64,000 nucleotides of DNA, from the NCBI GenBank assembly GCA_027533425.1, contig JAPZUD010000003.1, positions 5,001 through 69,000 of the forward strand, read 5' to 3'. Position numbers and translations under genes: made by a program. Origin of the DNA: Beijerinckiaceae bacterium. Its GTDB lineage: Bacteria > Pseudomonadota > Alphaproteobacteria > Rhizobiales > Beijerinckiaceae. This document shows positions 6,607-58,879 of this stretch, piece after piece (position 1 is the first letter of the stretch; each line of letters begins with the position of its first letter). The notes beneath the pieces are model-generated. The model was not told the origin of the DNA. It ran no database searches and saw only the letters and a program-made list of their open reading frames with translations.

Positions 6607-8823
<2,217 letters not shown>

Positions 8824-42720: not shown

Positions 42721-42736
42721 CGGCCTGCCCGATCCG

Positions 42737-43951
42737 TTACTTCAGCGTGCTGAGGAACTGCGAATAGGCCTTCGAATCCGAGGGAAGATCCTCGACGAAC
42801 ACCCATTTGCCCTTCTGCCACTGGAAGGCACCGTTGGAGGTGTAGGCCTGCCCGTTGACGTCGAACATCTTTCCGTCGACCGGCTGGTACTGCATGACAA
42901 CCTGCGGCGGCACGGCAAGGTTGCGCAGGGCCTTGGCAACGGCTTCCGTATTGTCCACCGTGCCGGCCGCCTCGATCGCCGCTTTCAGCGCATAGAGCTG
43001 GTCATAGGCGTAGGGCGAGCTGGGCGACGGCGAGGCATTGTATTTCTTGGTATAGTTCGCATGGTAGGCGATGCCGTTCTTGCTGGCGGACAGCAGCGTC
43101 AGCTCGGTGGGGCGGAGATCCCAGACCCCTTCCATCTGTTCCGAGGTCGTGACGCGGAGGAACTGCTCCTCGCTGCCGCTGGTGAAGCCGTAACGCGGGA
43201 TGTTCATGCCCAGCTCGACCGCCTGGCGATAGACGAAGGCGGCGGGCTCGACATAGCCGACGACGAGGATGGCATCGGGGTTGAGCCCGCGGATCTTCGT
43301 CAGCTGCGGGGTCATGTCGCGGTCCTTCAGCGAGAAGACCTCGCGGGCGATGATCTCGCCGCCGACCTTCTTGATCTCGCGTTCGACCGAATCGACATAC
43401 TGGGCGTAGAAGCCGACATCGAGCGCGCCGAGCACGGCGATGCGCTTCTGGCCCTTCCGCGCGATAAAGGTGCCGGCCGCCTGGCCGGTATAATCCGCCG
43501 GCGGGCGCGTGCGGACAAGATTGGGAATCTTCTTCGTGGTGATCGAGCGCTCGGCGGCGTTGCCGACCAGCATCACCGCCTTCTCGTTGCCGATGAAGGA
43601 GGCAACCGCGCTGGTCGAACCCGAGCAGCAGAAGCCGAGGATGTATTTCACGCCGTCGCGGTCGATCAGCTTCCGGACCGCGTTGGTAGCCTCGGTCGGG
43701 TTGGCCTTGTCGTCATAGGCGATCACATCGATCTTGTAGATATCCGGGCCGACCTTGATGCCGCCGGCCGCATTGATTTCCTCGGCCGCCATCTTGACGG
43801 CATTGGCCTGCGGCAGGCCATAGACGGCGCCGCCCCCGGTCAGGGCATCAGCAACACCGACCGTGAGCTTCTTTTCCGCCGCCAGCGACGAGCCGGCGAC
43901 GAGAGTCAGCGCCAAAGCGGCACAGGCACGCGTGAACTTGTGTTTGGACAT
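42737..43951 (-). CDS. ABC transporter periplasmic binding protein (LivK-like)
   Basis: A 404-residue type I periplasmic binding protein. Signal peptide KFTRACAALALTLVAGSSLAAE; mature part starts LTVGVADALTGGGAVYGLPQANAVKMAAEEINAAGGIKVG, the standard HAAT ligand-cleft lead. It captures the transported compound. Because the operon also encodes a CoA ligase and acyl-CoA dehydrogenase, the ligand is more likely a carboxylic acid than an amino acid. ATG at 43951 behind GGAGG. Confidence 0.93.
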   Translation of the reverse strand: MSKHKFTRACAALALTLVAGSSLAAEKKLTVGVADALTGGGAVYGLPQANAVKMAAEEINAAGGIKVGPDIYKIDVIAYDDKANPTEATNAVRKLIDRDGVKYILGFCCSGSTSAVASFIGNEKAVMLVGNAAERSITTKKIPNLVRTRPPADYTGQAAGTFIARKGQKRIAVLGALDVGFYAQYVDSVEREIKKVGGEIIAREVFSLKDRDMTPQLTKIRGLNPDAILVVGYVEPAAFVYRQAVELGMNIPRYGFTSGSEEQFLRVTTSEQMEGVWDLRPTELTLLSASKNGIAYHANYTKKYNASPSPSSPYAYDQLYALKAAIEAAGTVDNTEAVAKALRNLAVPPQVVMQYQPVDGKMFDVNGQAYTSNGAFQWQKGKWVFVEDLPSDSKAYSQFLSTLK

Positions 43952-43979
43952 GGTTTCCTCCGTTGTCGTTTCTTGTCGG

Positions 43980-44681
43980 TCAGTGACCGAGATAGGCACG
44001 CATCACGTCCGGGTGGTTCCTGAGGGTGCCGGCAGCGCCCTCCATGACGATCCGCCCGGCTTCGAACAGGTAGGCGCGGTCCGCGAGGTTCAGCGCCATC
44101 ATCGAATTCTGCTCCACCAGCAGGATGGTCACGCCCATCGCCTTGATCCGGGCGAGGGTCTCGAACACGCTGGCGACAATCTTCGGCGCGAGGCCGAGAG
44201 AGGGCTCGTCAAACAGGCAGATCCGGGGCCGCGCCATGAGTGCCCGCGCAATGGCCAGCATCTCCTGCTCGCCGCCGGAGAGCTTCCCCGCCGCCTGGGA
44301 TTGCCGCTCCCGGAGGATCGGGAACATGTCCATCATCCGGGAGAGATCGGCTTCCTGCTCGGGATCGGTGCGCGTATAGGCCCCCATCCGGAGGTTCTGG
44401 ATCACGCTCATCTGCGGGAAAACCTGCCGCCCCTCGGGACACATGGTGATGCCGGCCCGGACAATCGCATGGCCGCTCGCCCGCGTGATATCGTTCCCCT
44501 CGAACGAGATCGATCCGCCCGAGGCCGGCACCAGCCCGCAAATCGCCTTCAGGGTGGAGGATTTCCCGGCACCGTTCGCGCCGATCAGCGCCACGCATTC
44601 GCCAGCGGCCACATCGAGGCTGACCCCGTGGACAACCTCGATGCCGCCATAGCTGACCTTGAGATCGCGGACACTCAGCAT
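43980..44681 (-). CDS. livF: ABC transporter ATPase (LivF)
   Basis: A 233-residue ATPase: Walker A GANGAGKSS, signature LSGGEQEML, Walker B ICLFDEPSLGLAPK and the switch region. The short C-terminus (NHPDVMRAYLGH) is typical of LivF. It begins one base after the livG stop, with ATG at 44681. Confidence 0.95.
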   Translation of the reverse strand: MLSVRDLKVSYGGIEVVHGVSLDVAAGECVALIGANGAGKSSTLKAICGLVPASGGSISFEGNDITRASGHAIVRAGITMCPEGRQVFPQMSVIQNLRMGAYTRTDPEQEADLSRMMDMFPILRERQSQAAGKLSGGEQEMLAIARALMARPRICLFDEPSLGLAPKIVASVFETLARIKAMGVTILLVEQNSMMALNLADRAYLFEAGRIVMEGAAGTLRNHPDVMRAYLGH

Positions 44682-44682
44682 A

Positions 44683-45450
44683 TCAGGCCGCCTCGCCGAG
44701 ATAAGCATCGATGACGGCCGGGTTGGCCCTGATCTCGGCCGGGCTGCCCTCGGCGATCTTGGCGCCGAAATTGAGCACGACGATCCGGTCGCACAGGGCC
44801 ATGATCAACGCCATGTGATGCTCGATGATCACCACGGCGATACCGCGCTGGCGGATCCCGCGGATCAATTCGGCGAGTTCCTGCCGTTCGTGCTCCACCA
44901 GCCCAGCCGCCGGTTCGTCGACCAGCAGGATGCGTGGCCGCGCGGCCAGCGCCGTGGCGATCATCAGGAAGCGCTGCTGGCCGGAAGAAAGGCTGGCGAC
45001 AGGGCGATCCGCAACCGGATGGAGCGCGCAGAGCCGGAGAACCTCATCGACCCGGGCGTCGATATCGGCCTGTTCGCGCCGCCAGCTCCCGAATGGCAGG
45101 ATCGACGCAAACGGATTGACCTGCCGGATCGCATGGCATCCCATCGCCACATGCTGGCGCACGGTGAATTCAGGGAAGACACGCGCTGTCTGGAAGGTGC
45201 GGCTCAGGCCCCGGCCGACGCGCTGCGCTTCCGGCAGGCCCTCGATCGGCTCTCCGGCCAGGATGATCGAACCCGAAGTCGGCGGAAACACACCCGACAG
45301 GACATTGACCGTCGTGGATTTTCCGGAACCGTTCGGCCCGATCAGCCCGAGGATTTCGCCCGCCGACACCGTGAAGGACAGGTCCCGCACAGCCCTGACG
45401 CCGCCGAAACTCTTGGCAAGGCTGTCCACGCGAAGGATCGGCTCGGTCAT
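44683..45450 (-). CDS. livG: ABC transporter ATPase (LivG)
   Basis: A 255-residue ATPase: Walker A GPNGSGKST, signature LSSGQQRFL (Ser-Ser in place of the usual Ser-Gly-Gly), Walker B ILLVDEPAAGL, and the LivG-specific insert SRTFQTARVFPEFTVRQHVAMG with the ending PAVIDAYLGEAA. First gene of the eight-gene importer/catabolic operon and divergent from a LysR regulator. Confidence 0.95.
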   Translation of the reverse strand: MTEPILRVDSLAKSFGGVRAVRDLSFTVSAGEILGLIGPNGSGKSTTVNVLSGVFPPTSGSIILAGEPIEGLPEAQRVGRGLSRTFQTARVFPEFTVRQHVAMGCHAIRQVNPFASILPFGSWRREQADIDARVDEVLRLCALHPVADRPVASLSSGQQRFLMIATALAARPRILLVDEPAAGLVEHERQELAELIRGIRQRGIAVVIIEHHMALIMALCDRIVVLNFGAKIAEGSPAEIRANPAVIDAYLGEAA

Positions 45451-45513
45451 GATGCGGTTCCACCAGCGACACTACCCGCAGGAGTGTAGGCAGGTCCGGT
45501 GCCGGCGGGGTAT

Positions 45514-45527
45514 CGCAAAGATTTGCG
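45514..45527. promoter_or_regulatory. Dyad operator candidate between livG and the LysR gene
   Basis: CGCAAA and TTTGCG are perfect arms around GA in the 137-bp divergent gap, 61 bp before the LysR start. LysR proteins bind such dyads, often holding T-N11-A; autoregulation and control of the importer operon would both be possible from here. Confidence 0.5.
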
Positions 45528-45587
45528 CTAGATATTCAATTTTTCGATGATACTCTGGCACCAGAACAGAAGCCTTCAAGGCCGCCC

Positions 45588-46478
45588 ATGGTCCGCATCC
45601 GGAACATCAATTCCATCCATGTGTTTGACAGCGTTGCGCGATTTGGCAGCGTGACAAAGGCGGCCCATCATTCGGGCAGCACGCAGAGCTCGGTCAGCTA
45701 CCATATCAAGAAACTCGAAGCCGATCTCGGCGTGGTGCTGTTCCGGCGCACGGCCCACGGGCTTGAGCTGACCGAGGACGGGGCGAGGCTGGCCAGCCAT
45801 GTCGATGCCGGCCTCCGGCAGATCGGCAAGGGGATCGAAGAGGTCGCGCGGCGCCATGCCACGGTCCGGGTGGCACTGGTGCCGATGTTCGCGAGCCGCT
45901 TCGTCTCCTCGCGCATCAGCCGGCTCCAGCAATCCTGCCCGGATGTCGAGGTCGTGCTGCTCAACCACAACAACACATTCGTCGATTTCCCGGACCCGCG
46001 CAGCTTTGCCGATTTCGGCATCCAGTGGGGCCGTGGCAACTGGCCGAAATTCCACGCGGTCCGGCTGTGGGACGAGCGGCTCGTCGCGGTCTGCAGCCCG
46101 GATTACCGGGCGCGGCTCGCCATCGGACAACCGGCGGATGTCCAGCGCTGCACCCTGCTGCATGTCGATGACAAGCGGATGTGGGCGGAATGGATGGAGC
46201 GCTGCGGCACGACCCTGCGGGCCGAGCAGTCCAGCATGATGCTGGAAGACCGGCATTTCCAGCTCAGCTCGACCATCAACGGCCTCGGAATTTCCCTGTT
46301 CGCGGAATGGCTGGTCCGGGGCGAGCTCGCCTCCGGGGCGCTGGTCAACCCGTTCGGCCAATCCTGGCCGACAAGCTTCAGCTACCACCTCGTGACGCCG
46401 AAGGGCGCGCCCCTGCCCCCCGGCGCCAAGCGTGTCCGGGACTGGTTCCTCAAGCTGGCCAGCGAGACGGCGCGGTAG
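45588..46478 (+). CDS. LysR-family regulator (GcvA-like), divergent from the importer operon
   Basis: A 296-residue LysR protein. The DNA-binding domain is INSIHVFDSVARFGSVTKAAHHSGSTQSSVSYHIKKLEADLGVVLFRRTAHGLELTEDG; the effector domain (ATVRVALVPMFASRFVSSRISRLQQSCPDVEV) is of the GcvA subgroup. By position it should respond to the compound imported and degraded by the operon at 37177-45450. Confidence 0.93.
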   Translation: MVRIRNINSIHVFDSVARFGSVTKAAHHSGSTQSSVSYHIKKLEADLGVVLFRRTAHGLELTEDGARLASHVDAGLRQIGKGIEEVARRHATVRVALVPMFASRFVSSRISRLQQSCPDVEVVLLNHNNTFVDFPDPRSFADFGIQWGRGNWPKFHAVRLWDERLVAVCSPDYRARLAIGQPADVQRCTLLHVDDKRMWAEWMERCGTTLRAEQSSMMLEDRHFQLSSTINGLGISLFAEWLVRGELASGALVNPFGQSWPTSFSYHLVTPKGAPLPPGAKRVRDWFLKLASETAR

Positions 46479-46504
46479 CGCTGGGGCCGGCCCGGGCCGC
46501 CCTG

Positions 46505-48220
46505 TCAGGGCAGGAAATAACGGATCTCGAGGCCGCGCCTGTCGAAGCGGGCATGCCAGCTCTCCACCGTGTAGTTCTGCAGGAACACCCCGCGAGAGGA
46601 GCCATTCGAGTAGATTTTCGTCTTGCCGACAGGCACGGCCGGCTCCCCGACAATGCCGACATGGCCGGTCACGCCGCCGGCTGTGGGAGAAATGACGATC
46701 GCCCCGGCAACCAGCGCGTTTTCCGGCAGTTCCTGATGGCTGGCCACCAGCACCTTCGCCATGGCCGCCGTTGCGAGATTGCCGCCGATCGGCTTGCCGA
46801 GTGCCTGGCTGGCCAGCGTGTTGACCGCCCAGGCACAGGCCAGCTGGCCGTTATTCGTGCCTTTGACATGGCGCGAGACCAGCGTGTTAACCGCAGCGAC
46901 GGCAGCGGCAAACAGCCGGGCGGCGCGATCGCTGGCGGGAACCGTGATGCCGGGTGTTTTCCCGACAGGGTCGGGGCTCTCGATATCGCCTTCGAGATCC
47001 GCAACGACCTCGGAGGGCAGACCCAGGCCTTTCAGCGGCACGACCAGCGTATCGCGCTTGAGGACGCGCATCTCCCCGTCCGGGCGCTGCTCGATCAGGA
47101 CCTGGCCGGGCACCTCGCCGCCCTCGCCGACAAGCCAGAACTGCCGCTTGCCGGCATGCGCGCTGGCGAGCACGCGGAAGGGCACGGCGACCTGCAGGAG
47201 GTCGGTCGCCTTTGCCGGCAGAGGGCTGATGGCGGCACCGGGCTGGCCACCGGCCCGGTAGAGATCGAGCGCGAGGGTGGCCCAACGTTCCCGGCTGGGG
47301 AAGTTCTTCACCCCCGCCTTCTCGTAAGTGGCTTCGAAACGCTCCACCGCGGCGGAGAGCGTGGTGGTCTTGCGCAATTCGGTGATCGCGACGGCATGCG
47401 TCGTCTGCAACTCATGCATCAGGAAGCCGAAATTGGCTTCGTCCGAATAAACCGTCAGGCCCCTTTCCGCGGCGAAGGCCTCGAAGGCAGCCCGCCGCGT
47501 CTTGGACCATTGCGCCCAGCCGAGTCCACCCGTGGCGGGGCTCATTCCTTTCTCGTGCATGTCCCGGAAGCCGGCGCATTCATGCCCGAGATTGCCGAGG
47601 ATCCCGGCCACCTGGAACCCGGTCAGATCGAAGGCGTCCACCAGCCGGACCATGATCCAGAGGCACTTCTCGGCGAACAGTTTCTCCGATGGCTGGATGC
47701 CGGGGCCGGCACCGTCACCTGTCCGGGGTGGAATGTTGGGATCGGCGCCGCCAAGCTCCGCATCGTCGGCGGTCGTGGCGGGGTAGAGCACGGCAAAGGC
47801 ATCGACAATCTCCGCCCGGGTCGCGTCGAGCGCGGCCTGCAGGCGGGTTTCGAACCCCGCAACGGCGATATCCGGATCATCCGGCCAGCCCGCCTTGTAG
47901 AGTTCGACGCTCGTCGGGTGCCGGCCCTGTTCGAGCGAGAAGGCCTGGCTGACCCGCAACGTCCGGATGGCGGCATGCAGCACCTGCACGAAGGGGAATT
48001 TCCGCCGGTCGGCACCGAGATGGATCTGCAGCTCCGGATGCGATCCATCCGCATTCCATTCCGCTTCCGTCACGCGGTAGGGGCCGATCGCCTCGCCGGT
48101 CTTCCTGTTGACGATCCCGCTGCGGAACTGGGCCAGGGCCATCAGGAAATGGGGCTGGACGCCCACCCATACCCCGCTCTCGACGCATTGCTGGGCAAAG
48201 TCCTCGCGGTTGATGGCCAT
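46505..48220 (-). CDS. Two-domain peptidoglycan hydrolase: phage-tail-lysozyme-like plus CHAP-like
   Basis: A 571-residue protein with no signal peptide. Residues ~1-170 form an unrecognised N-terminal domain. About 185-320 is a phage-tail-lysozyme-like domain with the catalytic-type Glu214 in ILGNLGHECAGF and the family GLGWAQWSKTRRAAF. The C-terminal part, from about 440, carries Cys462 in ACAWAVN and His520 in GHVGIV, as in CHAP/NlpC-type amidases. It could thus cut both glycan and peptide bonds. Last gene of the seven-gene cluster; ATG at 48220 behind GGAGG, ten bp after the lipoprotein gene. Export or injection must come from another route. Confidence 0.75.
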   Translation of the reverse strand: MAINREDFAQQCVESGVWVGVQPHFLMALAQFRSGIVNRKTGEAIGPYRVTEAEWNADGSHPELQIHLGADRRKFPFVQVLHAAIRTLRVSQAFSLEQGRHPTSVELYKAGWPDDPDIAVAGFETRLQAALDATRAEIVDAFAVLYPATTADDAELGGADPNIPPRTGDGAGPGIQPSEKLFAEKCLWIMVRLVDAFDLTGFQVAGILGNLGHECAGFRDMHEKGMSPATGGLGWAQWSKTRRAAFEAFAAERGLTVYSDEANFGFLMHELQTTHAVAITELRKTTTLSAAVERFEATYEKAGVKNFPSRERWATLALDLYRAGGQPGAAISPLPAKATDLLQVAVPFRVLASAHAGKRQFWLVGEGGEVPGQVLIEQRPDGEMRVLKRDTLVVPLKGLGLPSEVVADLEGDIESPDPVGKTPGITVPASDRAARLFAAAVAAVNTLVSRHVKGTNNGQLACAWAVNTLASQALGKPIGGNLATAAMAKVLVASHQELPENALVAGAIVISPTAGGVTGHVGIVGEPAVPVGKTKIYSNGSSRGVFLQNYTVESWHARFDRRGLEIRYFLP

Positions 48221-48230
48221 GGATGCCTCC

Positions 48231-49283
48231 TCAGCGCTTGCAGGTGACGCCGTCGCTCTTCATCTGCCGGAAGATGGCGCCATCGAGCGGCGTCAGCCGG
48301 TCCTTCTCGCTCGGGTCCTTGAAGACCTCGCCCTTCGAATTGTTGCCGTTGAGGAAGGCCAGCAGGCCTTCGCGCACCGGCTTTGTCAGCGCCCCGGAAG
48401 GTTTCAGGCAGGCGATCGTCTCGAATTGCCGGATCAGCGGAGCGCGGAGGCCGACTTCGTAGGCTCCCAGCGGCTCGCCCTTCGGCGGCGGCGGAGGCGG
48501 CGGCCGGACCGGGCCGACAGGGTCGCCCGCCGAGCCGATAATGGTCGCCTCGATGGTCGAACCATCGATCAGCGGCGAGCGAACCATGCCGCCCCGTTCG
48601 AGAGTCGTGAGCGTCGTGTTGATCTCGGTCTCGATGGTGAAGGGCATGCACAGGCGGAGATATTGCCGCATCGCATGCACCGCATCGGGCCGGTTGGTGA
48701 TGAGGAGCGGCCGGATCTCCTCGCGAAGCCGCCTCTGCGCACCCAGCACGATGGACTGGACCGTGGAATGATTGACCTCCAGCACAAGACGGGACTGGAA
48801 ATTCGTGAAGCTGCTGGTTGCGAAGCCGAAAGCCGCGCTGACAATGGCGATCGGGTCGACGCCGACCCCGCTCGCGGCGAGGATCGCCGTTGTCGCGGTG
48901 CGGGCATCAGCCAGCTGCTGCTGGATGGGCCTGGCCGAACGCCTTTTGTCATCCAGCCAGGCGAGATAGGCATCGCAACGCGCATCGATATCGTTGAGGC
49001 CGGCCTGGACGATCAGCTTCCAGTCGGAGGGGCGCGTCGGCCGGCATGTCTCGGCCGGGCCGGGAAATCCGGCCTGGACGCAGAGCTGGCCGAGATACTG
49101 GTCCTGCATCGCCATGGCATCGGACTGGCCCTCCCAGGCCAGGGTCGTGCCGGCTCCCTCGCGCATCCGCTTCACATCGCCCATGCAGGCCGAAAGGAAC
49201 AGCAAGGGCAGAAGGACCATCCAGAACCGGGGGAGAACCCGTCCATGGATCTGCACCGGTATGCCGGGATGCCCTGCCCTCAT
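48231..49283 (-). CDS. Lipoprotein of unknown family
   Basis: A 350-residue protein. The N-terminus ends in FWMVLLPLLFLSACMGD, a lipobox (LSAC), so it should be anchored to a membrane by its Cys. The mature part is helical and Cys-containing (QLCVQAGF, DARCDAYLAW, LRLCMPF, TIACLKPS, VTCKR) with a proline run (PPPPPPPKG) about three quarters along. No domain recognised. ATG at 49283 follows GAGGGGG; a start further downstream would give a more normal signal length. Member of the seven-gene cluster. Confidence 0.7.
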   Translation of the reverse strand: MRAGHPGIPVQIHGRVLPRFWMVLLPLLFLSACMGDVKRMREGAGTTLAWEGQSDAMAMQDQYLGQLCVQAGFPGPAETCRPTRPSDWKLIVQAGLNDIDARCDAYLAWLDDKRRSARPIQQQLADARTATTAILAASGVGVDPIAIVSAAFGFATSSFTNFQSRLVLEVNHSTVQSIVLGAQRRLREEIRPLLITNRPDAVHAMRQYLRLCMPFTIETEINTTLTTLERGGMVRSPLIDGSTIEATIIGSAGDPVGPVRPPPPPPPKGEPLGAYEVGLRAPLIRQFETIACLKPSGALTKPVREGLLAFLNGNNSKGEVFKDPSEKDRLTPLDGAIFRQMKSDGVTCKR

Positions 49284-49390
49284 GCTCGCCCCCTCTGCCG
49301 AAGGTCTCGCCGGATCTGCCTTTTCCAGCCTAGGCGCATGCCGTCCGTTGTCGGTGGGGATTCCCACAAAGATGAACAGGACGTTACGAT

Positions 49391-50548
49391 TCAGAGCTCG
49401 ACCGGCACCGAGAGCGCATCCGGCTTGCGGAAATTCAGCGCAATCCGGCCATTCGAGGCAGCGGCCATGGCCTTGAGGAAGGCGGTCTGGGCCGCGGTTG
49501 CCGGATGGGTTTCCTCATAGGTCAGATGCACAGTGAACCGGTTCTGCCCGCAGGCCTTTTTCAGCGCCTCAAGGGTGAACATGTCCGGGTTGTCATGCTT
49601 GCCATTGGCGCAGAACACATAATGCCGGGCCGGAAAAAGCCGGAAGAAGGCCTCGCAATTATTGGCCGACGAGCCGTGATGCGGAACTTTCATCAGGTCG
49701 ATCGGAAACGGATCGGTCGTGCCCGTCCGTTCCTTCCAGCCTTCGATGATGTGCTCGGCGAGGCCATCGCCGGTCAGGAGCAGGGTCTTCTGCGCGATCG
49801 TGGCGAGAAACACGATCGAGGAGAGATTGGCGACGGAAGTATCGATCCGGCCACGGACGAAGGCCTGCAACGCGGCGTCCGACCCTGTCGCTTCCGCCCA
49901 TTTTGTCCTGAGCGCGTCGAGCCTTGCCTGCGTCGGCGTCAGGATCTCCAGTTTCGGCCCGTTCGCGCCGAACCGGATCACACGGGGCGCCAGCGCCTTC
50001 TGGTGCGCCTCGCTCCCGAAACTCTGGTTGAGCGTTTGCGGCACGCGCCCGCCCGCCTTCAGCGCGCCGAGATTCCGGAGCAGCGTCTCGCCATCGCGGA
50101 CGCCCTGGATGAACATGGCCGTCTCCGGCCCGGGAGCGCTGGCCATGAACACATCATTGCTGGCCAGCGAAGCCACCGAACCGCCCGCCTGCGCCGTCGT
50201 GCCGAAGGTCGCCTGGAAGCCGTTGAACCAGAATTCCTGGAACCGGACATCCGGCGTGCCGGCCGGTGGCGGGTTCAGAGCCATGGCGCCGATCAGCTTG
50301 CCCATGCCGTCGATATGGTCATCGTCGATATGGGTCACCACGCCCAGCCGGATCCGCAGCGGGCCGTTCCCGCCCTGCGAGGCCTGAAGCTCGCGCAGCC
50401 GCGGGGCAAGGGCCCTTGGATAGGTCTCGGTTGGCCCGCCATCGATCAGCCAGAGCTGCTTTTGCGGCTGGCCGGTCTCGTCATTCTGGGAATAATGCAC
50501 CATCAGGCAATCGCCATGGGCGGCATCCAGCGCCTCGAACGTAACCAT
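49391..50548 (-). CDS. ComEC-like metallo-beta-lactamase-fold hydrolase
   Basis: A 385-residue soluble hydrolase. It opens FEALDAAHGDCLMVHY, the ComEC-type HGDC start, then LWLIDGGP and VVTHIDDDHIDG with the metal site His73-x-Asp75-x-Asp77-His78; a second ligand region is KVPHHGSSANN. Stand-alone members of this family are thought to act on nucleic acids, nucleotides or phosphoesters. No signal peptide, so cytosolic. It sits directly after the subtilisin-like protease gene, 24 bp apart, in the seven-gene cluster. ATG at 50548 behind AAGGAGAGG. Confidence 0.85.
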   Translation of the reverse strand: MVTFEALDAAHGDCLMVHYSQNDETGQPQKQLWLIDGGPTETYPRALAPRLRELQASQGGNGPLRIRLGVVTHIDDDHIDGMGKLIGAMALNPPPAGTPDVRFQEFWFNGFQATFGTTAQAGGSVASLASNDVFMASAPGPETAMFIQGVRDGETLLRNLGALKAGGRVPQTLNQSFGSEAHQKALAPRVIRFGANGPKLEILTPTQARLDALRTKWAEATGSDAALQAFVRGRIDTSVANLSSIVFLATIAQKTLLLTGDGLAEHIIEGWKERTGTTDPFPIDLMKVPHHGSSANNCEAFFRLFPARHYVFCANGKHDNPDMFTLEALKKACGQNRFTVHLTYEETHPATAAQTAFLKAMAAASNGRIALNFRKPDALSVPVEL

Positions 50549-50572
50549 CGGCCTCTCCTTCCTTCTTCGTCG

Positions 50573-52804
50573 TCAGACCGATTGCAGCGCCCTGAGCGCA
50601 TCGAGCAGTCCCGCGCCCTGAAAGGCCGGCAGCCGGCCGAGATCCATCGCCGAATCCATCAGGATCGTCTTGATCCGCTGCGGCTGGCCGATCAGTTCGC
50701 GGTTGCGCGCCATCAGCATCGCGGCCACCGCGCTGACATGCGGCGCGGCCATGCTGGTGCCGTCGAGCAGTTTCAGCGCGTCATTTCCCGGCACCGGACC
50801 AAGGATCTTTTCTCCCGGCGCGACCAGATCCGGCTTCATCCGGCCATCCGCCGTCGGGCCGCGTGAGGAAAAATAGCTGACACCATAGGTATGCGGCTTG
50901 TCCCGATGGGTCGCGCCGACCGTGATGACGAGATCCGCATTGCCGGGATCGGTAATGCTGATGTCGCGCGCATTCTGTCCGGTCGAGAGGAGGCCGGGAT
51001 CGCCCTCGAACCCCATGTTTCCAGCCGCCGCGACGACCACCACACCGGAACGCACCAGCTGGTTGCTGGCCTGGCAGACAAGCGTCTGCCCGCAGGCATA
51101 GGCCTGCACATCATGGCCCACCGCCAGCGAGAGATTGACGCCATGGATCACCGGCTGGGTGCTGGAGCGGTTGAGATGCTCGATGAATTGAAGCGCATAG
51201 ATCAGCGTGTCCTCACGGCCGCGCCCGTCTGAATCAAAGGCGCGGATATCGTAGAGAGCAAGCCGCGGGCACACGCCCTGGAACCCTTCCGGACCGCATT
51301 CCGCGCCCTGTGCGGTCCGGCTGGCCTCGGGCCAGTCTCCCGCGAGAATACCGGCCACATGCGTGCCATGCTCGTTCAGCGGCGGCCGGTAATGTGGCGC
51401 GGCATGGGGGATTTCGAGCAGCGGCTCGATCAGCGACCAATCCACCGGCGCGCCGCTCTCGCGGCGGATCGCCACCCGTTCAAGCGCAACGGAATGCCGG
51501 TTCGTCACCGAGTTCAGGAATTCAGCCCAGCGGTTCTGGATGGCCTGAAGCTCGCCGTTCCAGCCGGCAATCTCCATGTCGAAGGCCAGGCGCCGCGGCG
51601 GAGGCAGATCGGCATGATCCTCACCCTGAAGGATGGCATCGAGCGCCCTGCGGTTCATCGCCGGCAGGTCGGGCGCGATGACCGGCAGCCGGGCCGTGGC
51701 GAGCAATTCCCGTGCATAGGTGAAATCATAGCTCCTGACGATCCGGCTGCTGTCGATCACCATGCCACCTTGATGGTCGCCCTCCCTGCCGCCGAAGGCG
51801 GCGTGGCGCGCATCGATGCCGCTGTCGACCACCGCCCAGCGGATCCCGGTCGTGTCGGTCTGGAACAGGCGATGGGTGGCATCGGCCTTCACGGTCCGGC
51901 GCGAGCGCGTGGCCGCATGTTCGGCCCGGCGGTTGAGGGCGATGCTGTGGATGCGGAGCCGGGCCAGATCGCCCTGCTGCTGGACAAGACGGTCGGCACC
52001 GGAGCGCTGGCTGCCACCCTGGAGGCGGACGCAGCCTTCGTCGATCGTCCGGAGAACGATGCCCATGGCCTCGTTCAGCACCGCAAGCAGGCCGGGCAGC
52101 GCGACATCCGGGTTGGTCAGCGACCGCGCCACCCCCAGCATGACCTGCCGGGTTTCCAGCACCGCAGTGAGGCTCGCCCCGGCCGCATCCGGCCCGAGCC
52201 GCCGCTGCCAGAGCACGGTGAAGCTGGCCAGCGCCACGAACCGGTAGAGCTGGAACGACGTTCGCCTTTCCTTGATCGCATCATCGACCGTGTAGCGGCT
52301 GCCCCGGTCCCGCAGGGACGCGGCGAACTCGTTCACGGACTGGAGCAGCTCGCGGCCCAGCGAGCCGACCGGCACGACTTCCTCCATCGGAAGCGAGGTT
52401 GTGCCGGTCTCCGCAAGGCGATGCCACCAGTCCGTCATTGGCACGACAGCCCGAAGTAGTTCCGTGACCGTCAGATGCGCATGCACTGTCGAGCGGGAAT
52501 AGGCGAGCTGCGTCCGCCGCCGCATGGAAAGTTTCAGGGCCGGGTTGTCGGGATTCTCGACGAGGTTGAGTTCCATCGCCACCGCCACGCTGCCCGCCGG
52601 AACGCCGTCGCGCGGCTGGATCATCAGGTCGGGACGCGGATCGACAAGGCCCTGCGCAAGATCTTCCCAGAGCATCAGCCAGACATCGGGCCTCACCGGG
52701 CTGTCCTGCGTGAAGCGGCTGTGGCCGAAAGTGCGGTGCACAAGATCGGTCAGGACAGCGCGTTCCTCGCGGGCGAGAGGGGCGGCATTGCGGCCTGTCT
52801 CCAT
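50573..52804 (-). CDS. Subtilisin-like (S8) serine protease with N-terminal extension and large D-H insert
   Basis: A 743-residue protein without signal peptide. Residues 1-320 are an unrecognised, mostly helical region. The S8 triad is complete: Asp327 in AVVDSGID, His479 in NEHGTHVAGI and Ser684 in GTSMAAPHVS. Asp and His are 152 residues apart, against 32 in subtilisin, so about 120 residues are inserted there (including LPPPRRLAFDMEIAGWNGE). Such cytosolic S8 enzymes in accessory clusters may be effectors or processing proteases. ATG at 52804 behind GAGGAGGGG, ten bp after the preceding gene. Confidence 0.85.
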   Translation of the reverse strand: METGRNAAPLAREERAVLTDLVHRTFGHSRFTQDSPVRPDVWLMLWEDLAQGLVDPRPDLMIQPRDGVPAGSVAVAMELNLVENPDNPALKLSMRRRTQLAYSRSTVHAHLTVTELLRAVVPMTDWWHRLAETGTTSLPMEEVVPVGSLGRELLQSVNEFAASLRDRGSRYTVDDAIKERRTSFQLYRFVALASFTVLWQRRLGPDAAGASLTAVLETRQVMLGVARSLTNPDVALPGLLAVLNEAMGIVLRTIDEGCVRLQGGSQRSGADRLVQQQGDLARLRIHSIALNRRAEHAATRSRRTVKADATHRLFQTDTTGIRWAVVDSGIDARHAAFGGREGDHQGGMVIDSSRIVRSYDFTYARELLATARLPVIAPDLPAMNRRALDAILQGEDHADLPPPRRLAFDMEIAGWNGELQAIQNRWAEFLNSVTNRHSVALERVAIRRESGAPVDWSLIEPLLEIPHAAPHYRPPLNEHGTHVAGILAGDWPEASRTAQGAECGPEGFQGVCPRLALYDIRAFDSDGRGREDTLIYALQFIEHLNRSSTQPVIHGVNLSLAVGHDVQAYACGQTLVCQASNQLVRSGVVVVAAAGNMGFEGDPGLLSTGQNARDISITDPGNADLVITVGATHRDKPHTYGVSYFSSRGPTADGRMKPDLVAPGEKILGPVPGNDALKLLDGTSMAAPHVSAVAAMLMARNRELIGQPQRIKTILMDSAMDLGRLPAFQGAGLLDALRALQSV

Positions 52805-52814
52805 CCGCCCCTCC

Positions 52815-53444
52815 TCAGCGCCGGTTGGCGGGGCAGGTGACCGGCGCCACCTCTGCCCAGCTGTTGAGCTGGCCCTTCACGGTCGTGATGACCTTCAGGC
52901 AATCACCCGGTGCGACCTGCCCGACAACCGGGTTGTTGGTTGCTGTGACCGAGGTGTTGCTCTTGCGGACATTCACCTGCCAGCGCGGCTCGATGATCGC
53001 GCCGACCTCGTCTGCGCTGGACTGCGGCTTGTCGAGCCTGTCGAAATTGGTGTCACTGTAGCGCTGCGGCGGAATCCGCCCGGTCGCGACCCAGCCGAGC
53101 CTGGAGGCGGGCGGCTCGTTCGTCTCCATCGCATCGACGAGCATGGACAGGGCCGGGCCCTGCGCCGGCTTCCACGAACTCTTGATGTAGCGGAGCCGGT
53201 CCTCGCCGAGCGCGCCGCAGGCCTTGCCAAAGGTTTCGAGGCGGTAATCGACAAGGTTGTTGGTGCGGTCCGTCAGGCTGTTGGCGCTGACGAAATCGAG
53301 GATCTTCGAGAACATCTCGTCGCAGGACTTGCCGATCGTCACATTCGCCTGCTCGCGCGAAAGCAGATACCCGCCGAAAGCCAGCGCGATGGCGACAACA
53401 CCCTTCTGCGCGATATCGGCCAGCTTCTGCAGGGTCTCAAGCAT
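52815..53444 (-). CDS. Membrane-anchored protein with a possible C-terminal SH3-like domain
   Basis: A 209-residue protein with one membrane segment near the start (QKGVVAIALAFGGYLLSRE). The middle is helical (CDEMFSKILDFVSANSLTDRTNNLVDYRLETFGKACG). The end, NNPVVGQVAPGDCLKVITTVKGQLNSWAEVAPVTCP, has the G-x-L-x-V...W-x-x-V spacing of bacterial SH3 domains, with two cysteines that could pair. No named family. Between the patatin and protease genes, with gaps of about ten bp, in the seven-gene cluster. Confidence 0.65.
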   Translation of the reverse strand: MLETLQKLADIAQKGVVAIALAFGGYLLSREQANVTIGKSCDEMFSKILDFVSANSLTDRTNNLVDYRLETFGKACGALGEDRLRYIKSSWKPAQGPALSMLVDAMETNEPPASRLGWVATGRIPPQRYSDTNFDRLDKPQSSADEVGAIIEPRWQVNVRKSNTSVTATNNPVVGQVAPGDCLKVITTVKGQLNSWAEVAPVTCPANRR

Positions 53445-53453
53445 GGCCGGCCC

Positions 53454-54575
53454 TCACCTGTCATCCAGCGGGAAGGCCGGCACGGGGAGAGCGGCCGGAG
53501 GGGCGGCCCCGGGAACGAGGAATGACCGCACGGCGACATCCATCGCGAGCCAGCCCCAGTTGATCAGGCGTCCCTGTTCGGCCTCAGAGAACGGGTTCAG
53601 CCGCGTCCTCAGCCGGGCCAGCGCGCTTATCCGGGCAGGACCGGCCTTGAGCACCTGAGGCGCTGGATAATCCGCCGGATCGCCGTCGATCCCGGCATAG
53701 ACCGGCTGCCGGCCGCTGCCGGCGCATTCGGCGAACAGCAGTCGCTTGCGCAGGCCGCGTGCCTGGTCTGTCGCGATATCGAGCGCGCGCATCGCCTGTT
53801 TGGGCCAGAAGCTGCTGGCCTCTTCCTCGGTGCCGAACGGCGCTCCGGCATCGCTGACAACGATCGTCCGGAAACTGTCGACCGTTTCAAGCCCGAGATT
53901 GTCATAGGCGCCACCATCGGTAAGCGACAACCGGCGCGTATAGGCCGGATCACCATGATGGATCGCCCCGTTCAGCTTCCGCCATGCGGCAGGATCCGTC
54001 TCGATCTCGACCGGCGAAAGCACCGGCGGGAAGGCGCTGGATGCCGCCACCGCGACAGCCAGCCGGACTTTCGGGTTGGGAATTTCCCCGATCGTGTAAT
54101 CCGCCAGCCGGCGTTTCTGCAGCCGGACAAGGCGCCCGGTCTGCAGGTTGGTGGCGTTGAACACGAATTGCGGCGAATCCGGCAGGTCCTGCAGGGTGAC
54201 GCCCTTGAACAGGTCGTCATAGGCATCGGCCAGCATGTCGCCGACACTGACGCCCGGGAGAAGGGCACCCCAGCCGACCGCGGATGTATCCAGAGACCGC
54301 GTGCAGAAGATGCGCAACGGGTCGATCACTGCAGCGCCGAGATTCGCGATCACACCATCCTTGATGACAAGGCGCTTCCAGGCGGCGGCCAGCATGCCGG
54401 CAGCGATCGACCCGCCGGAAACGGAGGAGATCCGCTCGAAACCCGTCAGCAGGCCCAGTTCGTTCAGCCGGATCAGCGCGCCGCAATGGAACAGGGTTGC
54501 CCGGAATCCGCCGCCCGAAAGGGCGAGGGCAGGCTTGCTCCTGTCGGCACTGTGTTGGACATCAAGGTCCGGCAT
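53454..54575 (-). CDS. Patatin-like phospholipase
   Basis: A 373-residue patatin-family acyl hydrolase. The oxyanion loop is SGGGFRATLFH; the nucleophile turn ISSVSGGS has Ser53; the catalytic Asp220 lies in LTDGGAYDNLG, giving the Ser-Asp dyad. Such enzymes cleave membrane phospholipids; in CBASS systems the CapV effector is of this type, but no cyclase is encoded here. ATG at 54575, six bases after AGGGGAGG, is better than a GTG at 54581. Second gene of the seven-gene cluster. Confidence 0.87.
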   Translation of the reverse strand: MPDLDVQHSADRSKPALALSGGGFRATLFHCGALIRLNELGLLTGFERISSVSGGSIAAGMLAAAWKRLVIKDGVIANLGAAVIDPLRIFCTRSLDTSAVGWGALLPGVSVGDMLADAYDDLFKGVTLQDLPDSPQFVFNATNLQTGRLVRLQKRRLADYTIGEIPNPKVRLAVAVAASSAFPPVLSPVEIETDPAAWRKLNGAIHHGDPAYTRRLSLTDGGAYDNLGLETVDSFRTIVVSDAGAPFGTEEEASSFWPKQAMRALDIATDQARGLRKRLLFAECAGSGRQPVYAGIDGDPADYPAPQVLKAGPARISALARLRTRLNPFSEAEQGRLINWGWLAMDVAVRSFLVPGAAPPAALPVPAFPLDDR

Positions 54576-54602
54576 GGCCACCCTCCCCTTCCGGCAGGTC
54601 TT

Positions 54603-55445
54603 CTAGATGCGGTGGACGAGATCGATGATCGCCCGCCCCGCGAAACGCCCGACAAAGATCGTGTCCGTCCGAATGGCCTGTTCGCGGGTCTGGTCGCGCT
54701 GGACCATCCGGGCTGCGCGGGCCGTGATCCGGTAGACGGGGCCGGCTTCCACCGAATAGCCGCCGGAGGGCGGAAAGCGCAGCGGATCGGTCATGAAGAC
54801 ATCGCGAAAGCGTGCGCCGATGCCCTTTTCGCCAAGAACGCCGGAGAGCGGCGCGGTGGCCTGCTCCTCCTCCGTCGGGCTGGCGACCTTCTCGATGAAG
54901 ATCTCGACCGGCCCGACCAGGCTGATCGGCTGGATCCGGACGGAAACCCAGGCGCGGTCCTGCGGCGGCAGGGGTCGCTCGGCCTCCGGCTTGACGGGCG
55001 AGCGCAGACCGAGCCGGGTGAAAAGCTCGAAGACCGCAGCACTTCCACCTGCCAGCACAAGCGCCGAGAGGATGCCGGAAACAGGCGACACCGCCTCCTT
55101 GCCGCCGGAAAAGACGATGATCCTCGCCATGACGTCATAGCCGAAGACCGACACGATGATCCCGCCGAACAGGACCATGACAACGGTCTTCACCGCGCGT
55201 CCGTTGAAGAATTCCCGGTAGAGCCGCCAGTTGAACAGGGTGGTCAGCGCGGTTTCCATCACCGTCGCCACGGCCAGCAATCCGGCCAGTTCCGGCAGGA
55301 GCTTGTCGGTCAGGACCTTGGGCAGCCCCGACGGGTCCGGTGCCGGGTTCTGCGCAAGGGCAGTGCCGAGGCAGGCCACGGTGATCAGGCTCGCAACCCC
55401 CAGTTGCCTTGTCCAACCTGCCTTCATGGTCCAACCTGCCTTCAT
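54603..55445 (-). CDS. Exported three-helix membrane protein of unknown family
   Basis: A protein of 280 residues from the ATG at 55445. After a signal-like N-terminus (LGVASLITVACLGTALAQ) come three membrane segments (LLPELAGLLAVATVMETALTTL; TVVMVLFGGIIVSVFGYDVMAR; GILSALVLAGGSAAVFELFTRLG) and a C-terminal soluble domain of about 120 residues (WVSVRIQPISLVGPVEIFIEKV onward). No domain recognised. The start codon lies in a perfect 18-bp tandem duplication, so two in-frame ATGs exist (55445 and 55427). First gene of the seven-gene cluster, divergent from the chemoreceptor. Confidence 0.7.
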   Translation of the reverse strand: MKAGWTMKAGWTRQLGVASLITVACLGTALAQNPAPDPSGLPKVLTDKLLPELAGLLAVATVMETALTTLFNWRLYREFFNGRAVKTVVMVLFGGIIVSVFGYDVMARIIVFSGGKEAVSPVSGILSALVLAGGSAAVFELFTRLGLRSPVKPEAERPLPPQDRAWVSVRIQPISLVGPVEIFIEKVASPTEEEQATAPLSGVLGEKGIGARFRDVFMTDPLRFPPSGGYSVEAGPVYRITARAARMVQRDQTREQAIRTDTIFVGRFAGRAIIDLVHRI

Positions 55446-55446
55446 G
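55411..55446. repeat. 18-bp tandem duplication spanning a start codon
   Basis: GTCCAACCTGCCTTCATG occurs twice in a row (55411-55428, 55429-55446). On the minus strand each unit encodes MKAGWT, so the start codon and five following codons are duplicated in frame. Confidence 0.9.
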
Positions 55447-55621
55447 CCGCACCCCATCCACCGTTGCTGCATTCGCGCAAGCGGAGCCTGGGCCGGAGCG
55501 GAGCTCCTGTCTGTGGCAATCGCCACATCCGGGGCGACCCAGCCCGAGGCGGTCCCGGACAGCAAATGGATTTCGGACTCTCCTGAAATTGCGAAACTTT
55601 CTGTCCGGCGGCTTGCCGGAA

Positions 55622-55637
55622 TTATGTTTCTATTAAC
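55622..55637 (+). promoter_or_regulatory. CtrA-like box upstream of the chemoreceptor gene
   Basis: TTATGTTTCTATTAAC reads TTAT, seven bases, TTAAC, one mismatch from the full CtrA consensus, and ends 42 bp before the chemoreceptor start. CtrA controls motility and chemotaxis genes in many alphaproteobacteria. Confidence 0.5.
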
Positions 55638-55679
55638 AAGTCTGGCCGCACTGTGTTCAAATCCATGAGGAGATCATCG

Positions 55680-57425
55680 ATGAAACACGAAGATCTTGCC
55701 AAGCATTCATCCAATAACTGGTTCGCCAATCTCAAGCTGGTCTACAAGATCATTGTAGCACTCGCGGCCCTTCTGGTACCGTTGACTGCGTCAACAATTT
55801 ACTCGATGCAACAAGTCAACATCGCTGACCGGAAGATCGACCATGTCGCCGAGCAGAGACTGCCGACCTTGACACATCTCTCCACCATGGCGTTCGAACT
55901 TGCGGATTCGGTTGGCGCGGCACGCGGATACATGCTCTCCGGCGATCCCGCCTTCCGCGAGGCGCGGGCAGCGTCGTGGAAGTCCCTCGAGGAACATCGC
56001 AACGCCTATCGCGAGGAAGCCAAGACCTTCACACAGGAGATCAACCGGACGCGCTGGGCTGAGCTTGATGCCCTCCTTTCCGAGATCCGGACCCTGCAGG
56101 ACAGGCTCGAAGCCTCGATCCCCGTCAACACGCGCGCCAGCGAGGCTCAGGTCAGGAGTTATGGCGAGACCCAGGCACCGAAGATCAACCGTGCCATCGA
56201 GATCATCGAGGGCGACGGCAAGGGTGACGAGGGCCTGAAGAAACGTCAGGTCGCCCTTGCGGTCGGAGAGATCCGCGAAGCCCGGGCGACGATCGATCAC
56301 ATGATCATCGCGAACGAGGTGCTCGCCGGCCTTGCGCTGCTGGTCGCGGCGATCGTTGTCTTCCTGATGGTCCGCACGATCTCGCGCCCGATCGTGGCCA
56401 TGACCGCGGCGATGCGCGCAGTCGCGGCGAAGGAATACAGCGTCACCATTCCGGCGGTTGGCCGGCGCGATGAACTCGGTGCCATGGCCGGCGCCCTTGC
56501 CACGTTCCGTGACGGGCTGGTCGCCAATGACCGGATGGAAGAGGAAGCCGCGCGCCGGCGCGAGCAGGATGCCCGCCGCGCGGCGGAGATCGAGGCCGCC
56601 ATCGCCGAATTCGAGCGAACGGCGGAATCCGTCATGCTGACCATTTCCTCGGCCTCGACCGAACTCGCCGCCGCGGCCGACGATCTGACAAAGTCCGCCA
56701 GGGAATCAACCATGCAAGCCGCCAGCGTCGCAGCGGCTTCGCAGCAGGCCAGCACCAATGTCAGCGGTGTCGCGGCAGCCGGTGAGGAACTCAACGCCAC
56801 AGCGGGCGAGATCGCGCGGCAACTGGAATCGGCGACGCATTCCATCCGCTTCTCGGTCGAGCGGATGCGCGCGACCGATACCGACATCCAGGCCCTTGCC
56901 CTCGCCGCGGACAAGATCGGCACGGTGGTCGAACTCATCAACAACCTCGCCGCCCAGACCAACCTTCTGGCGCTCAATGCGACCATCGAGGCCGCCCGCG
57001 CCGGCGAGGCGGGCCGCGGCTTCGCGGTTGTTGCCTCGGAGGTCAAGAACCTGGCGGCGCAGACCGGCAGGGCCACGACCGATATCGCCACGATCGTGAC
57101 CGAAATCCGGAATGTGACCAACTCGACCATCGACTCGATCCAGGCGATCGATGGCTCGCTCCAGAGCATCGACCGCGTCAGCACCGAGATTTCCGGCACG
57201 GTCTCGCAGCAGCAGAGCGCAACGCTGGAAATCGCAGCCAATGTCCGCGAGGCCGCCAAGGGCACCGAGGATGTCACCCAGTCGATCGGCCATGTCTCCA
57301 GCGCGGCCGGCAACACAGCCGCAGCCTCGAGCCAGGTTCTCAGTGCGGCAACGGAACTCGCGCAGCAGGCCGAATCCATGCGCGAGAACGTCTCGAGTTT
57401 CCTGGCGCGGGTGCGCGCGGCCTGA
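55680..57425 (+). CDS. Methyl-accepting chemotaxis protein
   Basis: A 581-residue transmembrane chemoreceptor. First helix [24 protein letters not shown], then a periplasmic all-helical sensor of about 150 residues with no ligand signature I recognise, second helix [21 protein letters not shown], a HAMP domain ([35 protein letters not shown]) and the signalling hairpin with the conserved tip [39 protein letters not shown]. Start ATG at 55680 has GAGGAG seven bases upstream; earlier in-frame GTG/ATG codons lack one. No CheR-docking pentapeptide at the C-terminus (ends LARVRAA). Confidence 0.95.
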
Positions 57426-57446
57426 CCGCGCGGCCCGCCGGTCCCC

Positions 57447-58565
57447 TTACGGCGCCCGGAAGAGGTTCCGGTACCGCGCCGGATGGGCACGGAGATATTG
57501 CGACGCGGCGTTGACCGTGCCGCCGAGATGCGCGGCGGCATGCCAGGGCCAGCGCGGATCGAACAGCATCGTCCGCGCCAGGCCGATCATGTCGGCATCG
57601 CCATTGGCGACGATCGCCTCGGCATGTTCGAAATCCGTGATCAGCCCTACCGCCGCGACCGGCATGTCCGCACCCTCGCGGACGCGCCGGGCCAGCGGCA
57701 CCTGGTAGCCGGGACCGATCGGGATCGAGGCGCGGGGATCGATGCCACCGCTCGAGACATTGATCGCGGCGCACCCCCGCGCCTTCAGTTCCCGCGCGAA
57801 CCGGATCGAGCTGTCGATATCCCAGCCGCCGTCGATCCAGTCCGTCGCCGAAATGCGCACGGTGACGGGCCGCCCGGCCGGAACGACAGCGCGCACGGCG
57901 TCAAAAACCTCAAGCGGAAAGCGCATGCGGTTCTCGAGGCTGCCGCCATAGCCATCCTCGCGCCGGTTCGAGATGGGCGAGAGGAAATTGTGCAGCAGAT
58001 AGCCATGGGCGGCATGGAGCTGGATCCCGTCCAGCCCGAGCCGCATGGCGCGCCGGGCCGAGGCCACGAAGGCATCCCGGATGCGCTCCATCCCCGCCCG
58101 GTCGAGGATCTCGGAGGGATGGTCGCCCTCGATCATCGGATGGGCGCTGGGTGCGACGGACTGCCAGCCATCGGCCGCATCCGGCGGGATCTGCCGCCCG
58201 CCCCGCCAGGGCCGGTCCGACGAGGCCTTGCGCCCGGCATGCGCGAGCTGCAGCACAAGCGGCATACCTGACCATGCGCGGACGCTGTCCAGCATGGCCT
58301 TCATGGCCGCTTCCGTGGCGTCGTCATACAGCCCGACGCAGGCCGGCGTGATTCGGCCGATCGGCTCGACCGCGGTTGCTTCGATGGTCAGCGCGCCGGC
58401 GCCGGACTGGGAAAGCATCCCGTAATGCTGGATATGCCAGGCATTCATGCAGCCATCGATCGCCGAATACTGGCACATCGGGGAAATGACGATCCGGTTG
58501 GAGAGATCGAGGCCGCCGACATGGAGCGGCGTGAACAACTGGGGCGAAGCCAAGGGAGGACTCAT
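57447..58565 (-). CDS. NADH:flavin oxidoreductase, old yellow enzyme (YqjM-like)
   Basis: A 372-residue FMN-dependent TIM-barrel ene-reductase. Markers are LSNRIVISPMCQYSAIDGCMNAWHIQHYG (the Cys of the thermophilic-like/YqjM class), QLAHAGRKAS, GLDGIQLHAAHGYLLHNFLSPISNRREDGYGGSLENRMRF and DMIGLARTMLFDPRWPWHAA. It reduces activated C=C bonds of small electrophiles. The frame extends far upstream, but the ATG at 58565 gives the normal family length. Convergent with the chemoreceptor gene. Confidence 0.93.
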   Translation of the reverse strand: MSPPLASPQLFTPLHVGGLDLSNRIVISPMCQYSAIDGCMNAWHIQHYGMLSQSGAGALTIEATAVEPIGRITPACVGLYDDATEAAMKAMLDSVRAWSGMPLVLQLAHAGRKASSDRPWRGGRQIPPDAADGWQSVAPSAHPMIEGDHPSEILDRAGMERIRDAFVASARRAMRLGLDGIQLHAAHGYLLHNFLSPISNRREDGYGGSLENRMRFPLEVFDAVRAVVPAGRPVTVRISATDWIDGGWDIDSSIRFARELKARGCAAINVSSGGIDPRASIPIGPGYQVPLARRVREGADMPVAAVGLITDFEHAEAIVANGDADMIGLARTMLFDPRWPWHAAAHLGGTVNAASQYLRAHPARYRNLFRAP

Positions 58566-58805
58566 CCGTACGGGGAGGGAAACCGGGGGCGACAGACAGG
58601 CCGCGCGCATGGCCAGCCGTTTGAATACATTATGCATGCCGCTTTCGAGGAGGCAATCCGGCAGGCGCGGGCGGGAACCATGGCGCCAGTGATCCGGCGG
58701 ATTTCCGCCACCTCGCCGGCCCAGCCCGGCGGAATTCCGCCGGCCCGGAAACACGGCCAAGCCTCAAAGCATTGAAATAGCAGAATTATCCTGAGAATTC
58801 ACCTC

Positions 58806-58821: not shown

Positions 58822-58879
58822 GAGCCTGCCGGTGGAAATGCGCCGACCCGAGAATGCGCATCCATCAAGGGAGTTGACC

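Follow-up and report, generated by a model that had tools for sequence, protein, structure and literature searches.

The window analysed here, 64,000 nucleotides of a Beijerinckiaceae bacterium (GenBank assembly GCA_027533425.1, contig JAPZUD010000003.1), carries a tight block of seven genes that we read, on balance, as a self-killing, probably anti-phage, cassette with a protease–nuclease core. In the order of transcription, the genes encode a three-helix membrane protein (P0007), a patatin (P0006), an anchored protein (P0005), an S8 protease (P0004), a metallo-β-lactamase-fold (MBL) hydrolase (P0003), a lipoprotein (P0002), and a lysozyme–CHAP protein (P0001). The most widely shared part is the S8–MBL pair and the MBL is of the anti-phage pro-nuclease group, so that DNA is likely the first target. 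With a protease and a probable nuclease of antiviral type next to enzymes acting on lipid and wall, a suicide or defence device is most likely, and we infer phage defence by the cluster. By analogy, the pair looks like an S8-driven variant of the known pairs in which a protease unlocks an MBL pro-nuclease. An earlier note on this DNA had proposed one device, plausibly an abortive-infection or programmed-lysis module or a secreted toxin set. The unit does look made for conflict or self-killing and not for housekeeping; the note's label "envelope-targeting" suits the lipid and wall enzymes, but not the S8–MBL core.

S8 and MBL genes are adjacent at at least 11 loci (six plasmids, three genome contigs, the window, and the genome G397), in the same order and on the same strand with S8 first, in Alphaproteobacteria, one actinobacterium, and one planctomycete (loci carry the prefix L, genomes the prefix G). 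Homologues scattered without linkage, which by the earlier note would refute its reading, are not what is seen. Among the best 30 of 169 plasmid records, the six plasmids whose S8 match spans more than half of P0004 (two Rhizobium, Methylorubrum, Sinorhizobium, Paroceanicella, and the actinobacterium Miltoncostaea) all have an adjoining MBL gene. So do three of the four long S8 relatives among the matches listed for genome contigs, where the family is under-sampled (Phycisphaerae L026, Qipengyuania L028, and the unplaced proteobacterium L029). In G397, the MBL gene follows an S8 gene that matches P0004 weakly (2e-9). The S8 and MBL distances are correlated (r 0.56, a value not reached in any of 9999 shuffles; 10 pairs, including the S8 of L013, a C-terminal piece only). 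Of the seven families, S8 and MBL are the most widely linked; genes for the lipase, the membrane protein, and the wall hydrolase turn up again next to protease–nuclease pairs, but not at every locus. A lipase is found near the pair in the window, L016, L017, L018, and L028, and in L029 (DUF2235-like, by reading only); a wall hydrolase is found in the window, L013, L014/L194, and L028, and in L017 by annotation. Separately, in the plasmid records H23, H24, H26, and H27, a 24% MBL match lies over features annotated MBL and S8, which may be a further S8-linked set.

The MBL P0003 matches the PADLOC models LmuA (2.8e-45), Avs1a (4.7e-27), and RTasMBL (1.1e-20), and the same three models match all four S8-type MBLs scanned (P0003 and those of L014, L029, and L188). 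In Pfam and NCBIfam, P0003 stays below cut-off; the NCBIfam Avs1a model gives 2.5e-35. It is in this relation to Avs1a that the unit resembles AVAST type 1, from which it differs in the score (122 vs. a cut-off of 420 bits) and in having no STAND protein: none of the seven proteins matches Avs1b in PADLOC, and the unit holds no other large gene on the minus strand. Residues H73-D75-D77-H78 and D261 are invariant in a seven-row alignment (A1). The nearest solved relatives by sequence profile are ComEC nuclease domains. Against ComEC 9ic4, an offset of ∼90 residues lies ahead of the C-terminal half (profile position 225 corresponds to chain position 135, with chain numbering unchecked), and 186 residues separate HxDxDH from TGD; the offset would leave room for gates. 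In a tree, one clade (100/98) unites the 11 S8-linked MBLs and is distinct from eight metalloprotease-linked rows (100/99) and also from two trypsin-linked MBLs (few rows, one long-branched). To judge from its sequence, P0003 is probably a pro-nuclease of the anti-phage kind. With the A1 profile, three of 385 genomes of the class give a match at E ≤ 1e-20 when the best four or fewer candidates per genome are scored: the window's, G397 (with S8), and G410 (locus L189). In viral contigs, P0003 has no match; S8 relatives occur there only at 24%–35% identity. Two distant MBLs are also present in viral contigs, one of which precedes an Avs1b gene.

In the S8 protease P0004, the triad Asp327/His479/Ser684 is invariant (alignment A2). 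The matches are to the subtilase class, with no trypsin-like or caspase class. The N-terminal region of ∼300 residues is family-specific (alignment A3). A profile of that region finds the window's genome alone among the 385, but with at most the best six candidates scored per genome this is no measure of rarity. IetAS systems combine an AAA ATPase with an S8 protease. The unit shares with them an S8 protease in a setting of defence, with weak IetS matches (best 1.6e-10) that are exceeded by the PADLOC "subtilase" model; it differs by its MBL partner, and no AAA ATPase was seen here.

Nuclease–protease pairs occur in Hachiman, AVAST, Lamassu, DRT, and canu (Tuck et al. 2025, PMC12799240). In the available part of that article, the authors show that the MBLs of Hachiman and AVAST are DNases kept inactive by insertions until a partner trypsin cleaves these, and that a caspase has the same unlocking role in canu; further protease families are mentioned without being named, and the terms "subtilisin", "subtilase", "patatin", "phospholipase", and "peptidoglycan" are absent from its main text. 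As in those pairs, the MBL here matches Avs1a, LmuA, and RTasMBL models and the partner protease sits in the neighbouring gene, with the nuclease downstream from the protease as in canu. Unlike in those pairs, the protease is an S8 enzyme instead of a trypsin-like enzyme or a caspase, there is no fusion to HamA, Avs, or LmuA, the MBLs form a clade of their own, and a lipase and a wall hydrolase are added. In System 3, as far as the available text of Kaur et al. (2020, PMC7159879) describes it, a trypsin and NucA, sometimes with S8, are accompanied by effectors against the wall, both lysozyme and papain-like, that are linked to EAD1; most such systems are in alphaproteobacteria, and the EAD1 adaptor is present on the effectors in a subset of loci. 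A protease–nuclease core with wall-attacking effectors is common to both, and genes of the P0007 family stand beside trypsin–NucA genes in L196 and L214. In the window unit, however, MBL and S8 are present instead, plus lipases. Neither NucA nor a trypsin-like peptidase was found among the seven proteins in Pfam and NCBIfam. A Pfam search of them at E ≤ 1 also gave no EAD family, although a diverged EAD could escape it. In the literature, preprints being outside the scope, we found nothing on S8–MBL with a lipase; fig. S2 in the supplementary material of Tuck et al. could hold a mention.

All seven open reading frames (ORFs) were located between 46505 and 55445, every one on the minus strand (Table 1), in agreement with the earlier note. 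The intergenic gaps are 10, 23, 24, 10, 9, and 21 bp with the lipoprotein taken as the longest ORF; five gaps of 9–24 bp, as first described, fit if the lipoprotein begins at an internal ATG, which is probably its true start. The ORF of P0007 could begin as far upstream as 55565. The genus was sampled with 17 genomes, the window's included. The S8 gene is present in four (G000, G013, and G015; G012 up to the contig end), with 81%–100% identity over the aligned part, the lysozyme gene in three, and the whole block is collinear with the window in G013 and G015. In the sister genome G002, the flanks (window 42469–46499 and 55621–59418) are collinear and 170 bp apart, vs. 9.1 kb in the window, so that the 9.1 kb holding the seven genes came or went in one event; the chemotaxis gene there adjoins the LysR gene. 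The latter occurs in eight of the 17 genomes at E ≤ 1e-60. In G012, the cluster does not follow the LysR gene but has a different neighbour, and so lies at another site. Presence and absence as one 9.1-kb block, with subsets recurring together elsewhere, bear out the view that the genes form one unit.

Table 1. Positions in the window of the seven genes, of the block that they form, and of its flanking genes
Feature	Position	Strand	Basis
P0007, three-helix membrane protein	54603..55445	-	hydropathy segments; family alignment A4
P0006, patatin-like phospholipase	53454..54581	-	PF01734 1e-19; motifs
P0005, N-terminally anchored protein	52815..53444	-	hydropathy; SH3_3 E 0.14
P0004, S8 protease	50573..52804	-	PF00082 7.5e-36; PADLOC "subtilase" 1.2e-40
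P0003, MBL-fold hydrolase related to Avs1a/LmuA/RTasMBL, probably a pro-nuclease	49391..50548	-	PADLOC; NCBIfam; clade
P0002, lipoprotein	48231..49367	-	lipobox LSAC by reading
P0001, peptidoglycan hydrolase, lysozyme + CHAP-like	46505..48220	-	PF18013 6.6e-21; CHAP 0.0047
Seven-gene block missing from sister genome G002	46500..55620	.	collinear flanks
LysR-type regulator, flanking, outside the unit	45588..46478	+	by reading
Methyl-accepting chemotaxis protein, flanking, outside the unit	55653..57425	+	by reading

The active sites that the earlier note called recognisable (S8 triad, patatin, MBL, lysozyme, and CHAP-like motifs) are all present, with its protease Ser684 and lysozyme Glu214 in their motifs. 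Its domain calls are clear for the patatin, the S8 protease, and PF18013; CHAP falls below cut-off and SH3 is a hint only. The patatin P0006 has the motifs SGGG-22, SVSGGS at 53–58, and DGG-222, with the catalytic pair Ser55/Asp222; Ser55 counted from the GTG start is the Ser53 of the note, counted from an ATG two codons on. A sequence search of the PDB gave no match for P0006 at E ≤ 0.01. The membrane protein P0007 has a signal-like N terminus, transmembrane segments at 53–71, 82–103, and 121–143, and a C-terminal domain of ∼135 residues; nine members are aligned (A4). No Pfam or PHROG family matches it over cut-off or below E 0.003 (below threshold, SURF4 at 0.0038), and no holin family was matched in these searches. 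It is a recurrent partner family without a name; its three-helix topology recalls a class I holin. In L213 (Niveispirillum), such a membrane gene stands alone, in that a search for the partner families out to 10 kb found no member. P0005 shows a 12-residue hydropathy peak of 2.22 and a C-terminal region that is faintly SH3-like; among the loci scanned, its relatives are in L019–L021 only, all of the window's genus. Relatives of the lipoprotein P0002 are found outside the genus in L202 and L203 (phmmer 2e-29 and 2e-11), where, among the loci scanned, they directly precede wall hydrolases. P0001 contains Glu214 within GHECAG in its lysozyme domain and CHAP-like Cys462/His520, which we take to be the catalytic residues. 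On plasmid pRle248d (L204, 7602–10322), a gene matching its C-terminal CHAP-like part adjoins a caspase-family gene.

In a simple hydropathy test (12-residue maxima), only P0007, P0002, and P0005 have a signal- or anchor-like N terminus; the S8 protease, the MBL, the patatin, and the lysozyme have no signal-like N terminus and look cytoplasmic. The same test finds no signal-like N terminus in 11 of 11 wall-hydrolase candidates, P0001 included, with maxima of 0.49–1.83 vs. 2.32–2.79 in five membrane proteins or lipoproteins (the 11 include L200 13706–14521, named by annotation with no Pfam hit; the L017 candidate is left out). Endolysins, too, often have no signal sequence. Wall hydrolases that are not exported should be harmless until the membrane fails and would fit an endolysin-like second step after a lipase or a pore. 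The likeness to phage holin–endolysin lysis lies in the signal-less wall hydrolase together with membrane-breaching proteins and a three-helix membrane protein; the differences are the lipase, the protease–nuclease core, and the lack of any phage context found.

A second MBL pair occurs on rhizobial plasmids, where a large metalloprotease-like protein (HETTHAxLDG by reading, with no convincing Pfam family) directly precedes the MBL, which bears HxHxDH in the eight rows checked. There are 12 such loci (L190–L192, L194, L195, L198–L202, L212, and L216), with one or both genes of the pair broken in L190, L200, and L212. In L202 of R. etli IE4771 (4395–8288), one long frame matches the S8 and the metalloprotease family and is followed by an MBL gene and a P0007-family gene. 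Upstream of different protease–MBL clusters in L194 (5103–8111) and L200 (3638–6239), there are two consecutive genes, the first annotated with 1371 bp in both; the second gene of L194 resembles, by reading, a SARP-type regulator. The same partners recur around both pairs, although not everywhere: a P0006-family patatin, an LCAT-like or Tle1-like lipase (PF09994 at 9.2e-61 for the Tle1-like catalytic domain in L016), the P0007 family, and wall hydrolases. The latter include lysozyme, amidase, CHAP, Hydrolase_2, and DUF2272 folds by Pfam and GH25 by annotation. A protease–nuclease pair lies within 10 kb in nine of the 11 plasmid loci examined for the P0007 family (13 records) and in 10 of the 15 examined for the patatin family (34 records), with L017, L190, and L191 counted in both.

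The genes suggest the following course. An infection signal, perhaps sensed by the N-terminal region of the S8 protease, would activate the protease, which would cut insertions closing the MBL active site; the freed DNase would then destroy phage and host DNA. The patatin, perhaps also P0007, would breach the inner membrane and let the signal-less lysozyme–CHAP enzyme reach the wall, much as a holin does for an endolysin, with the lipoprotein and the anchored proteins holding or restraining this envelope arm. We consider the DNA arm fairly probable; that the envelope arm is a coupled effector is tentative, a little short of even. A fuller scheme, speculative and rather unlikely as a whole, is a host-owned suicide device with three targets. 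One S8 initiator would unlock in parallel the DNase, the phospholipase, and the holin-like three-helix protein, and the lipid breach would admit the lysozyme–CHAP enzyme to the wall; phage DNA would be shredded and the cell would burst before progeny mature. On plasmids of soil bacteria, one general design would have interchangeable slots for the protease (S8, metalloprotease, or trypsin), the lipase (patatin, LCAT-like, or Tle1-like), and the wall hydrolase. If the proposed cassette is real, the initiators of protease-activated nucleases would include subtilisin-type enzymes and metalloproteases besides trypsin and caspase, and nuclease, phospholipase, and wall-hydrolase effectors would be tied in one swappable plan, a bacterial counterpart of the parallel execution arms in programmed cell death. 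The P0007 and lipoprotein families are new handles for finding such loci, and the signal-less lysozyme behind a lipase makes the holin–endolysin analogy directly testable.

Several observations weigh against the self-killing cassette with a protease–nuclease core. No sensor is recognised for the unit. The stretches of low conservation in the MBL do not form two clean loops. P0004 also matches models not related to defence, such as mycosin (2.9e-25) and a PHROG protease (1.2e-39). The two partners of the core can be apart: no MBL was found with the long S8 relative of L027, none was seen in L030–L035, which match the S8 catalytic part only, and the MBL of G410 (L189) stands without S8 in the stretch examined. 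P0007-family loci lack a pair in L203 and L213 (two of 11), as do the patatin loci L193, L197, L215, L217, and L218 (five of 15). The defence-named neighbours described below are missing in L016, L017, and L018. With a lipase near six of the 11 S8–MBL loci and a wall hydrolase near five, the envelope arm is optional. These last counts and the patatin loci without a pair also speak for accretion, that is, for S8–MBL as one defence pair and the patatin, the membrane protein, and the lipoprotein–lysozyme genes as separate conflict genes that share plasmid hot spots and form one operon only here. The swapping of partners (FRG in L013 and L014, the Tle1-like lipase in L016) points the same way. Accretion is nonetheless unlikely in view of the six short gaps, the single strand, and the single-block gain or loss in the window's genus, and the same partner families stand beside two MBL clades and beside trypsin–NucA.

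Wall, membrane, and DNA enzymes in one place, with regulator and chemotaxis-like genes as neighbours, could also belong to a host module for programmed lysis or development without a phage trigger, for example for cargo release or kin signalling. The patchy occurrence in four of 17 genomes of the genus and the carriage of relatives on plasmids, several with defence-named neighbours, make this improbable. A secreted toxin set, also raised in the earlier note, finds no support because the S8 protease, the MBL, the patatin, and the lysozyme show no signal-like N terminus and no contractile sheath was found in the four carrier genomes. The related proposal that a type VI or phage-tail-like system injects the proteins as effectors into rival bacteria draws on the Tle1-like domain of L016, on the occurrence of the lysozyme domain in phage tails, and on a type VI secretion system elsewhere on the R. 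phaseoli R630 plasmid. It is very improbable: VipB is present in two of the 17 genomes, neither a carrier (it is absent from G000, G012, G013, and G015), and a phage sheath in one, again not a carrier; moreover, the MBL matches defence families and no immunity gene is recognised. For this genus, sheath-based injection is contradicted by the missing sheath genes in all four carriers. A lysis cassette of a prophage, which the earlier note named as a refutation, or of a gene-transfer agent is a further possibility. PF18013 is a phage tail lysozyme family, the signal-less enzyme is endolysin-like, and PHROG matches cover parts of P0001 (tail tape measure, 1.1e-5), P0003 (tail protein, 6.8e-12), and P0004 (the protease model given above). 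Those matches are, however, to single domains of larger phage proteins; among 50,697 phage records, P0001 matches over just 24%–28% in eight and P0003 once, weakly, and no phage-like neighbour was noticed in the window between 44000 and 58000. With phage-record matches so partial or weak, the prophage cassette was set aside as extremely unlikely.

The neighbourhoods of the related loci give weak support to a defence role. The metalloprotease set lies beside Hachiman-type genes in Agrobacterium L192 (HamA and HamB confirmed by PADLOC) and in R. leguminosarum L198, and CBASS genes are beside it in L198 and L199. FRG and SIR2-type genes adjoin S8–MBL in L013 and L014 (SIR2 in L013 by reading), and S8–MBL stands after a cyclase–E2–TIR set in L015. 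In this last locus (Methylorubrum pCMU01, 4373–7619), the cyclase, E2-domain, and TIR genes end ∼290 bp before S8–MBL and could represent a Pycsar-like set, or else serve the pair as an alternative front end. In a crude count, 18 of 103 non-cluster genes in eight loci (L013, L015–L018, L192, L198, and L199, selected, with names judged by hand) bear defence or toxin–antitoxin names, vs. three of 93 in control stretches taken from the L198 and the L014/L194 plasmids, one from each. Defence-named neighbours, whose enrichment the earlier note had suggested looking for, are commoner in the selected set than in the controls, but do not occur at each of its loci.

Two further observations concern the window outside the unit. 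The ORF at 21931–23097 lies in a stretch of low G+C content (∼0.49 vs. 0.66); its early part, FVIGAGANYDLDMPLG, reads SIR2-type, and it is possibly a single-gene defence element. At 26639–29556, just after a tRNA-Leu gene (26513–26597), two minus-strand ORFs that read like M16 peptidases coincide with a dip in G+C content (0.57–0.59).

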